Shown: piece after piece, positions 1,536 to 9,477 of the stretch | Position numbering within the stretch: position 1 is the stretch's first letter | Layout of the letters: each line of letters starts with the position of its first letter | NCBI GenBank assembly: GCA_032358255.1 | Contig: JAULBX010029091.1 | Span: forward strand, 1-23,995 | Length of the DNA stretch: 23,995 nt | DNA from: Heterotrichella gracilis | Lineage: Eukaryota > Sar > Xanthophyceae > Tribonematales > Xanthonemataceae | Direction of reading: 5' to 3' | Translations under genes and position numbers: made by a program | Notes under the pieces: model-generated | What the model was told of the DNA's origin: nothing | What the model saw: the letters and a program-made list of their open reading frames with translations, nothing else | Database searches by the model: none

Positions 1536-4500
1536 ATGTTGCTGACGTTGGAGCTTCGGCCGGGGACAGGGCTGGGCCCGTTCACGCTGGGTAAGCTGCA
1601 GCTCGTTTTCGTATTTGTGGTGTTGTTGCGTGCAACTCGCGGGCCTTGGACGGGCATTCCTTATTCACGATCTGGGGTGCAGGTTCCTCGCTGACCGCTG
1701 TGCTCAGGACGCTCCGGGGCAGCAAGGCGCAATACCGCTGCGTGGAGATCAAATACTGCGAACAGGTAATAAACCCCGTTCCTATCAGTCGCAATCCCCG
1801 CCCATACACGCGCTGCTTTCCAAGTTGGAAACCCGACTTGGGTTTTGAACCCCACAAGGAGCATACTTGTGTACCCGTCTATGCAGTGGCTACAACTCAC
1901 GTTGGTCCCCACAGGCACTGTTCGATGAAGACCTTATCGTCAACTTCCCGGAGCACGGCCTCCAGCTGCGGTTCGAGCCGCGGTCCCAGCGGCTGAGACT
2001 CCTGGAGGTGTACGACCCGTCACGCATGCAGGTAGCTGTCCCAACCCCCCGTATCCACCCCCCCGCACCACCCTCCCACTTACCCTTGTGTGTACCCTTG
2101 TGGCACCCCGCCTTGCCCACAATGTTCAACCTTGCCCGCCGCCCCGCCCCCCGCCCTCACCACCCCCCGTGTGTGGCCAGGTCAAGTTTGGTCAGCTCGT
2201 AGTGGGGGGTGCTTCGTATGCTGCAACGCTGGCCAAGGTATACGACCTCTTCGGGCCCACGTACGCAGGTAAGGGGGCTGAAAACACGCATGAAATGTGT
2301 GCAGGTCCATTCCAATGGGGCAAGCCACCATCTGGCGCCATAGCAGTGCTTGTGCCACTCACCCTGGGCAGTGCGCCAAAGCAGCGTTTCAGCCACTGCT
2401 GGGCGCTCGCCAGAGGCTACTGTGTGCACACTGCAGGTCCATCCATACTGCGTTGTGCATTCAAGCGTGCGCCCACGTGCAAGGCGTTTGAGGGTGCCCT
2501 GGGTGGTGCGGGCACCCCACCCCTCCCCACTCGACCCCACCCTCATACACCAGCGGCGCAAGCCCTTACCCACGCGTCCCACACCCACCCATCTCCCCTA
2601 CAACCCATGCACCAGAGGATTACACCAGCTTGCCTGCCACCGCCACCCACCCCCCTCTCCCCCTTCCAGGCACCTACGACCCTGCCCCAGGGGAATATTG
2701 GCTGCAATACCCTGGCCTGCTGGTTGTATTCCCAGTGGCCCAGGCGCACGCGGCGCAGTGGCAGGGTGCGGGGGGGGAGCTGCCACTGCAATTCCCAGAC
2801 GGGAGCGCACCCCTGGCCTCGCGGATGTACATGTTTGCGGGCCTGGCAAGTACGTGCGGGCAGGGTGGGCAAGGGTTTAGGGTTTTGCCTGGTGGTGGTG
2901 GGCCACTGTAAAAATTATTGCTTTTTTCTATGAACCTTTGTTGGGAATAATGGGGTAGCACGGAAGTGCGGTAAGCGGCACGGCTGGTTGGCCACCATCT
3001 GCCACACTGGAAACGACGACTGACAAGCCTTGGCTCATGGACTGGGGTGAGACATACCCAGCCGTGCTAATCTGGCTTCAAGCTGGAACGCAAATACTTA
3101 CTTAAAACTGACTTATTAACTGTAGACAGAATTTCTAGTATCAAAACGAAATTCAACAAAGATTGAGATGTAGTTTCTTTCTGACCAAACCCCTCCTCTT
3201 CCCCCCGCAGGACCCCCCTCCGCCCTCCCCTCCATCCCCCCCCCGCCCCCCCGCGAGGACGCCCACCCCGAGCTGGTTGAGGCTGTGGTGGGACAGGGGG
3301 TGTGCTTCACCCGCCAGCGATGTGAGCTGCGGTTTGGGGACCACCCGCAGGACGTGCTGGCGCTGCTGGGGCCCCCATCAGCCACGTCAGCAAAGGAGCA
3401 GGGGGCAGCGGTAAGGAGGGGGTGGGCTGGTGGTGTCTGCCGGGCAAGTTATGATTCATGGTCGTTTGCACTGCAATATTACATGTGCAGTTCCCCATAC
3501 ACCGCAATGCCACCCTTATGCTGTGCAGGGCCCGCGTTGTGTATGCCATGCATGTGCAATTCCGTCTACGCGATGCGCTGTTCAGTGTGGGAATGTAATG
3601 CACCATGCCATGCACCATGCCGCGCAGTATCAGAGCGACGCCGTGCACTGGCCTACCAATCCGCTACCACCACCCCCTGCCACCCTCCATCACCCGCCTC
3701 CCTCCCCTCCCCACCCACAGGTCATGTTCTCCCCCTGCCCCCCCCACGCCGCCCCCGACTACACCTACCACTACCAGGCCAAGGGGGTGGACTGCGTGTT
3801 CTGCGGGGCCACCCACCGACTCAGGCGCCTGGTGCTGCACACAAACGTGCCTGGCCATGCGGAATTCGACATGTATGCGAAATGCAATTTCAAGCTGGTT
3901 CAGGCTGCCGAGGTGGCGCAGGAGCGGAGCAGCAGCGGGGCGCTCAGCTCAAGCCCTAGCCTAGGGTTTGACAGCGGGCCTGGCCTGGGGGTGGTCAGCA
4001 GCCCCCGGCTAGGGCTTGGCAGCGACCCTAGCCAAGGGTTTGACAGCAGCCCTAGCCTAGGGTTGAGCGCTGCGCCGTCAGCGGATTGCGAGCTCATGCG
4101 GTTTGACGACCAAGAGCCAATGGGGACCGAGGAGATCCTTACAGCAGCCAGCCACACGCCCGCACACCCTCCGCTAGGGTTTTCCAGCCACCTATCAGCA
4201 AACCCTCCGCCAGGGCATGCCAACCGCACACACCCACACCCCGGGGTAGGTTCCACTTCCTCACAGCCTGCCTTGGGCGAAACTGGCGTCCCCACTAGCA
4301 ATCCCAATCTCAATCCCGGGGAGGAGCCTGTTGGGTTTGCCAACCTGGCATACAGCATGGGCAGCATGTTCTCCAACCTGCTTGAGGATGTGGTGAGCAT
4401 AGGGGAGGCGATGTCACCCAGCGCAAAGGGGGGGGCAGGGGGGGGGCAGGGGGGCGACGCGCAGGGGAGGGAGGGTGGGGGGGGCAACATGTCGCTCAGC

Positions 4501-5472
4501 GTGCTGTTTTCAGGCTTGGACTCCAAGCCGGAGCCTGAGGAAGCACAGGGTCCCTTCCTCCCGCCGGACACCCCACCCACCACCCACCACGTGCCAGCTG
4601 GCAGTGAATCCACCACCACCACCACCACCAGTGCCGACAGCGCGCCACTTGGCGATCAGGGACACGCCACAAGCAGGTGGGCTGAGAACTCGCATGTACA
4701 GAACCCTGATGACCTTAATTTGATCAGTGCCATGGGTATGCTATCCAAACCCTAAACCCTAAACAGAGATCAAACCCACCCTAGGTAGAACGCGTGGCCG
4801 TGGCTCCTTTCCGCATTGATCACATGACCATGTTCATCCATTGGCAGGTGGGCTGACAGCGCTGCAGGCGGCGGGGACACACGCTCTGACATCGCACCAG
4901 GTGGCGCCTTCCCACGGCTGTCTGTCGCCGTGCCAACACCTGGCGCTGACCTGCCCCGCCAGGCATCGGAGGGCAGCGAGGCGGCATCCCCATTGGACGG
5001 GTGGGAGGCGGACGAGGATCTGGCATTGGGCACGGCGTGGGGCGCGGAGCCTGGGCCCGAAGTGCAACCCACTGCCACGGCGCAGGACTGGACGCTGCTC
5101 GAGGGCAAGGATTCGACTCCAGAGCCACCCGAACCGGTCCCAGCGGTAGCGGCGACGCCACCCGCATCCCCGCTGCCGCCCCCAGCGCTCCCCATCGACC
5201 CCCCCCCAGCCCCCGCACCCCCACGCGCCCCTTCCGCCCTCGACCTGGTCGCCCCCCACCCCCCACCCACCCCACCGCTCACCGCCGACAGCACCTGGCC
5301 CGAGATTGAGGCTGCCCTGGGCCCCGCCAGCCGAGCGGTGGTGCACGCCAGGGGCCCCGCCCCTGCCCCCGTCCGCGCCACCTTTGTGTATGCCTACAGT
5401 GGGGTGACCTTTGAGGTGCTGCGCAGCGGACACCTGGCGTCGGTCACCCTGTTTGACACCCGCAGAGGGTGA
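1536..5472 (+). CDS. PHAF1/UPF0183 (C16orf70-like) family protein with long internal insert
   Basis: The model has eight exons: 1536-1590, 1683-1765, 1915-2031, 2181-2268, 2670-2849, 3211-3410, 3721-4735 and 4868-5472. These total 2343 nt (780 aa), every phase matches, and the stop TGA is at 5470-5472. The family is recognised from the N-terminal ELRPGTGLGPFTLG, from FPEHGLQLRFEPRSQRLRLL, from VYDLFGPTYAG, from LPLQFPDG, from LRRLVLHTNVPGHAEFD followed by KCNF, and from the C-terminal block at residues 721-780 (STWPEIEAALG, FVYAYSGVTFEVL, ending VTLFD). Mammalian PHAF1 acts with BCAS3 at the phagophore in autophagy; the algal role is inferred from that. Family members are usually near 400 aa. 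Here about 420 Pro/Gly/Ser-rich residues (about 303-720) separate the core from the C-terminal block. The last intron is the least certain: donor 4677 with acceptor 4847 also keeps frame. Confidence 0.88.
3952..4071 (+). repeat. Five 24-bp in-frame coding repeats in the PHAF1-like insert
   Basis: Five adjacent 24-base units encode SPSLGFDS, GPGLGVVS, SPRLGLGS, DPSQGFDS and SPSLGLSA. The best-preserved units contain the palindrome CCCTAGCCTAGGG followed by GTTTGA, which looks like two telomere-like motifs (CCCTA and TAGGGTTT) in opposite orientation. The units diverge from one another but none breaks the frame. A related CTAGGGTTTT occurs further on in the same exon near 4173. Confidence 0.8.
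4747..4763 (+). repeat. Telomere-like AAACCCTAAACCCTAAA inside the last PHAF1-like intron
   Basis: Two and a half plant-type units (CCCTAAA) lie a few bases after the predicted GTATGC donor at 4736. They also supply the TAA (4753-4755) that would end the protein if the intron were kept. Confidence 0.75.
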
Positions 5473-6668: not shown

Positions 6669-9477
6669 TCACACATCCTCCACCCCTCGCAGCGCCTCCT
6701 CTATCACCCCCACGCACGCCCCCACGCTCTCCCCCCTGGCCATGGCCCCCGCCAGCTCATCCTGCACCCCCCTGTGGCGCCGCAGCAGTGTGACGCACGC
6801 AAGCACAGCCCAACGCACCTGGGCGTCGGCCTTGGCCTGCGCACCAGCAAGGGGTTTGTTAGTAATCATAATTCTTCCAAGAAGCATTTCCTGTTTGGTT
6901 CTTGGGCTTTTTGCAAAGAACAAAAGCTTTACTGAAGTAAAATATATTTGTCTATAATAATAGCAACGCGCTGCATTACATCTCCATCACCCCCTCACCC
7001 CACCATCCCCCATTACACCCCCATCACCCCTCACCCCCATTCCTGTTTTGTGAGCTTCTCTTTTATTCCTAATACACGAAAAGTAATATAATATGTATCC
7101 ATTTACCTGCGTGAAGCTCAGCGCCCTCAGTAGCTGATCCAGCTGCGCCACATCCCCCATGCCGCCCTCAGCTCCGCCAAACCGCTCGTACTCGGTTGCC
7201 ACCCCCGCCAGCGCGATGCAGCAGAAGGTGTCCAGGCTGGCAGCTGACAGGCGCCCGCTGGCCACCTCGGACTGGAACGCGCTGTCGCACAGCTGGGTGC
7301 CCCCCTGGAGGGTGAGGGAGCCCTGCCTGCAGGGTGAGACCGGATTTGAGTTTACCGTAATAGGTGTGCATTTGTTTGAGTGTGCCCCTTGGAGGGTCAG
7401 GGAGCCCTGTCTGCAGGATTAATTATAAAAAAAATCCAAAGTTCATTAACAGAAATAGGAAAATATAAATAGTTGGGTGTCCTATACTTACCACAGGAAT
7501 AGTAAAGAACTAATTAGACATATTATTATATAAGCATGATTAGCATTCATTAAATTTGTAAAAATTTAAAAATAAATGGTTTCACAAATATATACATCCC
7601 CCCACCTGCGCAGCGCCCCCAGCGTGTACCCCCGCGGCAGCACCCCCAGCAGGTATGCCACCATAAAGTGGCCCGCCTCGTGCACCGCCACGCGCCGCGC
7701 ATAGCTAGGGCTCAGCACGCGACCCGCACTGTCCACAAGCAGCGCCTCCACACTGCCGCCGCTGGCAACCTGGGGATGGGTGGGGGGTGGGGGGTGGGGT
7801 TTCAAGCGCTTGGCACCACATGTGCATGGCCGACGGTCAAATCTGACAGCGTCGGTGACTGTCAGGCTGTCTAATCTTACAGGTGTCTGCATTACGGAGC
7901 GGTGAGCGGCTGTGCAAATGCGGTGTGTGACAAGCCATGTAGGGCGGGCAGTTGTCTTCCACCCCACCCCACCGATTCAGCCATTGGCCCCTCACCTGAT
8001 CCACTGTCAGCACCAGCGATGCCAGGAACAGCACCACTGTTAAGGGTTCAAGGTTTAGGGTTTTGGCCCATCACCTGATCCACTGTCAGCACCAGCGATG
8101 CCAGGAACAGCACCACTGTTAGGGTTAAGGGTGTAGGGTTTAGGGTTGGCGCCCCTCACCTGATCCATTGTCAGCACCAGCGACGCCAGGAAGAGCACCA
8201 CTGTTTAGGGTTTAAGGTTTAGGGTTTAGGGTTTTGACCCCTCACCTGATCCACTATCAGCACCAGCGACACCAGGAACAGCACCACTGTTAAGGGTTTA
8301 GGGATTACAGCTGAGGGTTTGCGCCCCGCACCTGATCCACTGTCAGCACCAGCGATGCCAGGAACAGCACTATCAGCAGCTGGCTCACGCTGAGGTCATA
8401 GGCAACAAAGGCCGCCAACAGACCCGTCAGCGCCGCCACCTGGTGGCGCAAGGGGGAGAGAGGGTGAGTGGCGCGGCAGGTTGGGCTGGTGGTGGCGTGC
8501 GGGGGCGTGGCGGTAGGGGTATTGTGGGGTGGGTCACATGAGGCTTGCAGTGTGGTGAGGCGATGGCAATGGAACCAGTATTGGAATCCGTGATAAAAGT
8601 GGAATCCGTGATAAATGGAATTGGAAATGCAATCCATGATAAAAGTGGAATCGTAGATAATATCATGGAACCAGTGACGGAAATGGAACCACAGGCAGCG
8701 CAGTACAAGAGAGCGCGTCCCTCTCCCCCTACCCCTACATCCCCGCACTGTCCCCCTCACCTGCAGCTTTGTGCGCACGCCGTTGAGCGTCTTGTCCTCT
8801 GGCGCCAGGAACTTTGACGTGTCAATCTTGTTCAGGCGCAGCTCCTCAAGGGAGTAGATGCGCTTGGGGACCTGGGGGGGGGGGGGGATGGGGGTAGGGG
8901 GGATGTCAGTAACAGGTGGAGTAAGTAAGTAAAAGGGGTATCTGCATTCCAATTTTGAGCCAGATAACCAGGCACCATGCCTGTGTATGCCTCACCCCTA
9001 GGTGGTGGGCCCCATCTAACCACCCACCCACCTGTCGCGCGCCCCCAAACCCCTTCACCACCCCCTGCTCCTTCAGCCTGGCCATCAGCTCAAGACCACC
9101 CGCCTCACCCTTGGGGCCTTCCACAGCCTGCAAAGGGGGGGATTATATCAATGCAGGGGATGGGGAGGAAACACTGGCGCATGCTACCCTGCGCAGGTTT
9201 GTTGTGGGTTATGCACTGCAGAGAGGTGGTGCGCCACAATGAGGCTATGCAGTACTTGAGCTCCCATGTGTGCGCCGCCGTCATGAGGGAGGCTTATTTT
9301 CAGGGGACAGCGTGATCGCACCAGCCGCTTGTCCAGCTCCTCCAGTGCCTGGCGCAAGGGGGGGGCAGCCACCGGGGGAACACCCTGCGGGGAGGAAACC
9401 GGCTTTGCCATTGCTGGGTGGACCCTGTTGCAGCGTGAGGCCATGCGCCATGCCATGTGCCATGGCTGCCCCATCAT
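6669..9477 (-). CDS. FtsH-like M41-type zinc metallopeptidase-related membrane protein lacking an AAA domain (VIR3/At5g27290-like)
   Basis: The exons in transcript order are 9477-9322, 9127-9032, 8871-8761, 8439-8332, 7769-7606, 7326-7107 and 6836-6669. They total 1023 nt (340 aa) with matching phases, and the stop TGA is at 6671-6669. The N-terminus from Met at 9477 (internal MAWRM, basic, free of acid residues) resembles a plastid transit peptide, so this start is preferred but unproven. FGGARQVPKRIYSLEELRLN leads to FLAPEDKTLNGVRTKLQ, then a hydrophobic segment at residues 122-157, then VAVHEAGHF with the zinc motif HEAGH at 187-191, LPRGYTL, and AGVATEYERFGGAEGGMGD, where Asp270 may be the third ligand. 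The layout matches plant plastid FtsH-related proteins without an ATPase, which are linked to chloroplast development. Proteolytic activity is unproven. The splice junctions of exons 4 and 6 are tandemly duplicated. Confidence 0.85.
7297..7417 (-). repeat. In-frame 84-bp duplication of the exon 6 acceptor and exon start
   Basis: On the + strand, a GTGCCCC..GGAGGGT(G/C)AGGGAGCCCTG(C/T)CTGCAGG block occurs at 7297-7333 and again at 7382-7417. On the coding strand each is a CTGCAG acceptor followed by codons for QGSLTLQG. The real family sequence is at 7326 downward. Use of the upstream acceptor (exon ending at 7410) adds exactly 84 bases with no stop, inserting 28 residues that begin QGSLTLQGAHSNKCTP. 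The donor phase (AG + A or G = Arg) works for both. Confidence 0.75.
7418..7600. other. AT-rich intron segment
   Basis: Most of the intron upstream of exon 6 is strongly A/T-rich (runs such as ATAAAAAAAATCC and TATTATTATATAAG) and sits between exons that are mainly G/C. The intron at 6837-7106 of the same gene is also A/T-rich. No coding frame or terminal repeats are seen. Confidence 0.7.
7996..8370 (-). repeat. Five-copy array of an exon 3' end plus donor, separated by telomere-like sequence
   Basis: A 39-bp piece that encodes VLFLASLVLTVDQ, followed by a GTG donor, occurs at 8370-8332 (the end of the real exon 4), 8284-8246, 8198-8160, 8113-8075 and 8034-7996. The starts are 86, 86, 85 and 79 bp apart. 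The real exon has donor GTGCGG, three extra copies have GTGAGG and one has GTGATG. Each extra copy is preceded on the coding strand by CCCTAAA/CCCTTAA-type repeats ending in AACAG and TG, so each has the form of a 41-nt mini-exon with both an AG acceptor and a GT donor. Point differences between copies (for example TMDQ at 8160, LVLIVDQ at 8246) show they are not an assembly stutter. Confidence 0.85.
8571..8690. repeat. Degenerate minisatellite in intron 3 of the FtsH-like gene
   Basis: GGAATCCGTGATAAAAGT at 8583-8600 is followed directly by GGAATCCGTGATAAA at 8601-8615 and by a variant AATCCATGATAAAAGT ending at 8645. GGAACCAGT flanks the array at about 8571 and 8667. The stretch is A/T-richer than its surroundings and has no coding role. 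Confidence 0.6.

Follow-up and report, generated by a model that had tools for sequence, protein, structure and literature searches.

The five-fold array at the end of exon 4 in the window (the whole stretch of DNA analysed, 23,995 nucleotides, which is the entire contig C656 of the 68.5-Mb assembly) belongs to a class of telomere-like inserts spread across the genome. Judging from the sequence, the array is probably a telomerase repair scar at an exon/intron border that was later multiplied. The wider proposal, in which telomerase serves as a repair polymerase at breaks throughout the genome of this alga and creates splice sites in doing so, is a tentative one, and we regard it as doubtful.

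Structure of the array and its host gene

The array consists of five copies of the exon-4 end and its donor (D) with four telomere-like spacers (T) between them (Table 1). TRF detects a tandem repeat at 7984–8370 with a period of 86, 4.6 copies and a score of 459, and the copies are spaced 79, 85, 86 and 86 bp apart, confirming the five-fold array at 79–86 bp spacing of the original prediction. The source of the copies is the last 39 nt (13 codons) of exon 4, positions 8332–8370, the exon ending at 8332 on the minus strand; extra copy 1 continues into the remainder of intron 4. An AACAG acceptor and a GT donor bounding a 41-nt unit had been proposed for every extra copy and are present in 4/4. 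It had also been claimed that the extra copies carry the donor GTGAGG and the real exon GTGCGG; this holds for exon 4 and for copies 1, 3 and 4, but not for copy 2, which has GTGATG. CTG opens each of the four spacers at the identical place after D, and an AAGG variant in the second unit is common to spacers 1 and 3.

Table 1. Features of the exon-4 array and neighbouring exons; positions are those of the window.
Feature	Position	Strand	Description
Whole array	7984..8370	.	Five D copies (exon-4 end + donor, ~49-51 bp each) with four telomere-like spacers T between
Exon 5 (probable 3' end)	7606..7769	-	Translation with HEAGH; direct join to exon 4 in homologues
Extra copy 1	7996..8036	-	Potential 41-nt mini-exon; AACAG acceptor, GTGAGG donor; equals exon 4 over 39 nt
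Telomere-like spacer T1	8037..8064	+	Begins CTG, then TTTAGGG-type units; read from sequence
Extra copy 2	8075..8115	-	Potential 41-nt mini-exon; AACAG acceptor, GTGATG donor; equals exon 4 over 39 nt
Telomere-like spacer T2	8116..8149	+	Begins CTG; read from sequence
Extra copy 3	8160..8200	-	Potential 41-nt mini-exon; AACAG acceptor, GTGAGG donor; 3 differences from exon 4
Telomere-like spacer T3	8201..8235	+	Begins CTG; TRF: 8203-8234, period 7
Extra copy 4	8246..8286	-	Potential 41-nt mini-exon; AACAG acceptor, GTGAGG donor; 3 differences from exon 4
Telomere-like spacer T4	8287..8321	+	Begins CTG; most decayed of the four; read from sequence
Exon 4	8332..8439	-	108 nt, 36 codons; donor GTGCGG

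A 256-aa protein, hand-joined from five exons, served as the query for the host gene and matched 207 proteins at E ≤ 0.001, the first with 64% identity across the entire query. Named matches near the top of the 120 listed are chlorophytes (Chlorella, Parachlorella, Nannochloris and Coccomyxa), with land plants further down, and the names among the matches listed include 'stress regulated protein' and 'peptidase M41 domain-containing'. The description of the gene as 'FtsH-like' is only loosely right: M41 names occur among the matches listed, the exon-5 translation contains HEAGH, and Pfam returned no family for the 256 aa submitted. Rfam gave no match in the window at gathering cut-offs.

All 12 aligned homologues (12/12) run without a gap across the junction between exons 4 and 5 (VDQ-VA, or DQ-IA in some). 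The conserved product is thus the one in which the exon-4 donor is spliced directly to exon 5, and default splicing most likely skips all of the extra copies. With codons numbered from the first of exon 4, the inclusion of any single one of the four extra copies would lead to a premature stop at codon 45. The frame shift that had been expected from one extra copy is thus borne out in a stronger form than claimed, with the stop inside the copy's own 41 nt. Copies 4, 3 and 2 together (the one three-copy combination tried) give a stop at the same codon, and intron retention brings an early stop as well.

A regulatory or splicing role for the array is possible. It could be maintained as a regulatory cassette that tunes the gene through nonsense-mediated decay whenever one of its poison mini-exons is included, and the acceptor and donor on every extra copy, with a stop in the unit upon single inclusion, are what such a cassette would need. 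Copies 1 and 2 are unaltered over 39 nt, but copies 3 and 4 have drifted; furthermore, arrays of like plan are present at many loci and the homologues have a direct exon 4/5 junction. We consider maintenance as a cassette unlikely, and the direct junction in homologues together with the many similar scars favours the array being a by-product rather than a means of expression control.

Insert boundaries and a telomerase-RNA gene candidate

The sequence (TTTAGGG)3 has 834 matches in the 68.5-Mb genome, whereas the reversed control has 0. TTTAGGG repeats are also borne by the contig ends C173 and C717; at the former (L024) the terminal telomere tract follows directly after CTG, like many internal inserts, while at the latter (L111) it does not. 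From the first 100 of the 834 places listed we drew a sample blind to the flanks, comprising 65 distinct arrays and 68 loci. This sample spans contigs C2–C58 with 20 regions on C31–C46 missing, and several arrays in one locus were counted separately.

The inserts have preferred starts. Among the 100 listed of the 790 places with HHG before (TTTAGGG)2, CTG is the start in 45, compared to 18.3 expected from the HHG words in the retrieved loci (P 8e-10). Only 7 of the 65 arrays in the flank-blind sample begin with CTG, however, and therefore CTG is a preferred but not a universal start; the impression that it is universal came from loci selected for CAG and is ruled out by this count.

The right ends are not in random phase either. 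The numbers of arrays with 0, 1, 2, 3, 4 and 5 bases matching beyond the last perfect unit are 12, 19, 14, 16, 2 and 2, respectively (n=65), such that 49/65 inserts end 1–3 nt into TTT (27.4 in random phase) and 4/65 end 4–6 nt in (26.6 in random phase); only these 4/65 extend beyond GGGTTT. This first test included decayed units, and a recount minus the 12 arrays that possibly end in a decayed unit keeps the effect, with 37 and 4 of 53 arrays in the two classes against 22.4 and 21.7 expected. A further subset of 50 arrays is biased, as its extension rule absorbs long partial units, and we rely on the counts from 65 and 53 arrays.

A candidate for the telomerase-RNA gene agrees with both boundaries. 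Both U6 genes found have the arrangement CCCATAACT, 17 nt, TTGCAAG, 64 nt upstream of GTCCTTCGGGACATC near the RNA start. A search for this kind of promoter element together with a template (CCCATAAC then CCCTAAACAG at about 101–161 nt, a single distance range) returned two places in the genome. The candidate at C189:223444-223579 on the minus strand has a U6-like promoter (CCCATAACT, 17 nt, TTGCAAGTACATAG), and the template lies at offsets 123–136 from the first promoter element, so that a type-3 Pol III (U6-like) promoter is accompanied by a template within 200 nt. Pattern tests at the candidate found AACCCTAAACAG and the 13-nt AAACCCTAAACAG, and did not find TAAACCCTAAACAG or AACCCTAAACAGTG; a further repeat base (TAAACCC) is absent. 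The AAA pattern test was made after the end histogram had pointed to TTT as the place where inserts end. A template 5'-AAACCCUAAACAG-3' would make CTG-TTTAGGG-TTT, fitting both insert boundaries, and the insert ends thus fit the template of this putative gene. A template flank CAGTG, suggested by the CACTG junction in the window, was not found in the C189 candidate and is rejected, and the CA before CTG in the window is therefore unexplained by the candidate template. A TERT domain (PF12009) is present at C626, in two pieces. We found no paper on telomerase RNA in Trebouxiophyceae, the group in which the best named protein matches would tentatively place the alga, in the open-licence PMC literature.

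These boundaries bear on a second alternative, in which end joining at breaks took up pre-existing pieces of telomere and telomerase did not act on site, an explanation also named for mammals (PMC2246262). Telomere repeats between duplicated flanks (see below) are equally expected from such capture, but it predicts that starts would vary and that ends would fall at any phase of the repeat, whereas the observed starts and ends are non-random and agree with the template candidate. The phase tests make such random capture unlikely, and we give it little credence as the source of the array.

Duplicated flanks and other exon borders

Each array was tested for duplication by comparing the 80 nt to its left with the 80 nt to its right, with telomere words masked and a threshold score of 28. 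Direct duplications flank 30 of the 65 arrays, and 35/65 missed the threshold. Mismatched pairs were positive in 6/4160 cases and displaced pairs from the same locus in 25/384; the latter control reaches 6.5% owing to the frequent tandem repeats of the sampled loci. At a score of at least 24 there are 33 flank pairs (30 of them at least 28), with aligned lengths of 16–65, and at least three copies of the duplicated piece are present at 6 of these 33 loci (L069, L074, L075, L092, L101 and L108). In the window, the D copies correspond to a target duplicated on both sides of an insert, as for insertion at a staggered break. Outside the sample, L112 has a perfect 28–31 bp duplication either side of four CCCTAAA units, in which an acceptor and an apparent exon start are duplicated. 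At L018, L031 and L032 the inserts are head-to-head, TTTAGGG against CCCTAAA, which is the product expected if both ends of a break were extended.

The duplications are enriched for AGGT/ACCT, with 22 occurrences in 1153 bases across all 33 pairs scoring at least 24, compared to 10.8 expected (P 0.0005, 2000 shuffles); break position, G-rich priming or survival may each account for it. This enrichment and the length of the flanking duplications would also suit a mobile element of the introner type that ends in telomere-like sequence and duplicates its target site, yet besides the repeats the insertions have no sequence in common. With masking and the low-complexity filter on, flanks of different loci are unrelated in 2079/2080 pairs, and the sole shared match (1/2080) is one G-rich 17-mer; a first comparison, unmasked and unfiltered, had found 30/2080 locus pairs similar. 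A mobile element is rejected on this absence of a common element sequence, and is a very improbable source of the array.

Several other loci have arrays or duplications at exon borders, as judged from open frames and splice-like words. At L038 (1432-1572), three copies of an exon end and donor (ACAG/GT) with telomere-like spacers follow an open frame with a glycine-rich loop, and the next open frame has a protein kinase match (PF00069, E 1.5e-11). At L108, a gene with WD40 (PF00400, E 6.6e-8, above cut-off) precedes six copies of a WD40-like piece at 740-1420, all starting at a CAG-type acceptor and most of them with CAG/GCTGTGGCA, with telomere-like spacers between. L023 has an LRR-like exon end and donor (a sub-threshold Pfam match to LRR_8, E 2.2e-5), and L002 an exon-end-like array in a gene of which one peptide had no PDB match. 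The submitted pieces of L002, L112, L005 and L022 had no Pfam match. Tandem repeats are error-prone in assembly, but the copies in the window differ mutually at several sites and arrays of like plan with other D sequences are present at these other loci, which makes an assembly artefact scarcely credible.

The window contains three further features of note, all on the plus strand. A candidate 171-nt intron at 4677-4847 in the upstream gene has GCAGGTGGGCTGA at both ends and encloses CCAAACCCTAAACCCTAAACAG, and its removal leaves an open frame through the junction; it is possible that this intron was made by the same kind of event as the array. In the upstream gene, AAGGGTTTAGGGTTTTGCC at 2873-2897 lies near a probable donor (GTACGTGCGG) and may be what is left of a further insert. 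An open frame at 3952-4064 has tandem 24-bp repeats (AGCCCTAGCCTAGGGTTTGACAGC) with telomere-like words within them.

Proposed origin and relationship to known systems

We propose that the exon-4 end and its donor were hit by a staggered break, with some 50 bp (D) laid open, and that telomerase, with the RNA template given above, extended a 3' end, adding (C)TG first and TTTAGGG units next. Fill-in and joining would then leave D-T-D, and the D-T unit would have been multiplied to five D copies via slippage or unequal exchange. The shared CTG position of the spacers and the AAGG variant of spacers 1 and 3 favour one founding insertion followed by duplication of the unit. Each extra D would automatically be a 41-nt unit with an acceptor and a donor, because the opposite strand of a CTG-started insert reads ...CCCTAAACAG, the CTG start becoming the CAG of AACAG on the gene strand, and D itself carries the donor. 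That the array arose through repair involving telomere-like DNA, which was part of the original prediction, is well supported by the genome-wide inserts, the flanking duplications and the ends that fit the template candidate.

Extended to the whole genome, the more doubtful proposal of splice-site manufacture would work in the same manner: with a template followed by CAG, one strand of any CTG-started insert would end in an AACAG acceptor, while donors would come from the long duplications of the target with their excess of AG/GT. If this is true, telomerase keeps supplying decoy and poison exons and, at times, new introns, of which the candidate at 4677-4847 may be an example. Telomerase repair scars have already been described in mammals. 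The alga has many probable ones: roughly half of those sampled carry long duplications, several on exon borders build arrays of potential mini-exons, and their ends fit the flanks of the template candidate. The scars also led to the candidate gene for the telomerase RNA, and both the frequency with which telomerase acts at internal breaks and break repair as a source of splice sites and introns become testable in one organism. We found no title or abstract in the open-licence PMC literature that links telomerase inserts to splice sites in algae.

The closest known parallel is with the interstitial telomeric sequences of mammals, which were inserted at double-strand breaks with retrotranscription of the telomerase RNA (PMC2246262). 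As in the mammalian loci described in that text, the algal inserts are internal telomere repeats between unrelated flanks with in-register junctions and target duplications, and at complex mammalian loci the repeats follow a handful of bases whose complement lies 3' of the template. The two differ in that target duplications are reported at 6/130 rodent and 4/25 primate loci (PMC2246262), compared to 30/65 arrays in the alga with aligned lengths up to 65, and in that the alga has secondary arrays, several of them on exon borders.

There are also parallels with two routes of intron gain. In Daphnia, introns gained at staggered breaks have insertions ended by direct repeats, and repeated bouts enlarge them (PMC4202315); the array resembles these in having direct repeats at both ends of an in-gene insertion, read as staggered-break repair. 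The intron/exon repeats given for Daphnia in the same source are 4–12 bp, whereas the algal duplications are longer and the filler is a telomere repeat; the word 'telomer' is absent from the Daphnia intron-gain text (PMC4202315). A review describes intron gain via tandem genomic duplication of AGGT-containing exon pieces (PMC3443670), and here too the copying of an AG/GT segment yields new splice sites. Unlike in the system outlined there, the telomere insert between the copies supplies the AACAG acceptor in the alga, and the array lies in the intron beside its source exon.

The repeat and the candidate RNA gene also have counterparts. TTTAGGG is considered ancestral in green algae in the comparative genomics of Chlamydomonas (PMC8226300). 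The search for plant-type telomerase RNAs, as set out in a review (PMC12133305), looks for a species-specific upstream element with a template within 200 nt, and the C189 candidate has this arrangement, albeit with a different template: that of Arabidopsis is CTAAACCCT, whereas the candidate has AAACCCTAAA and then CAG.
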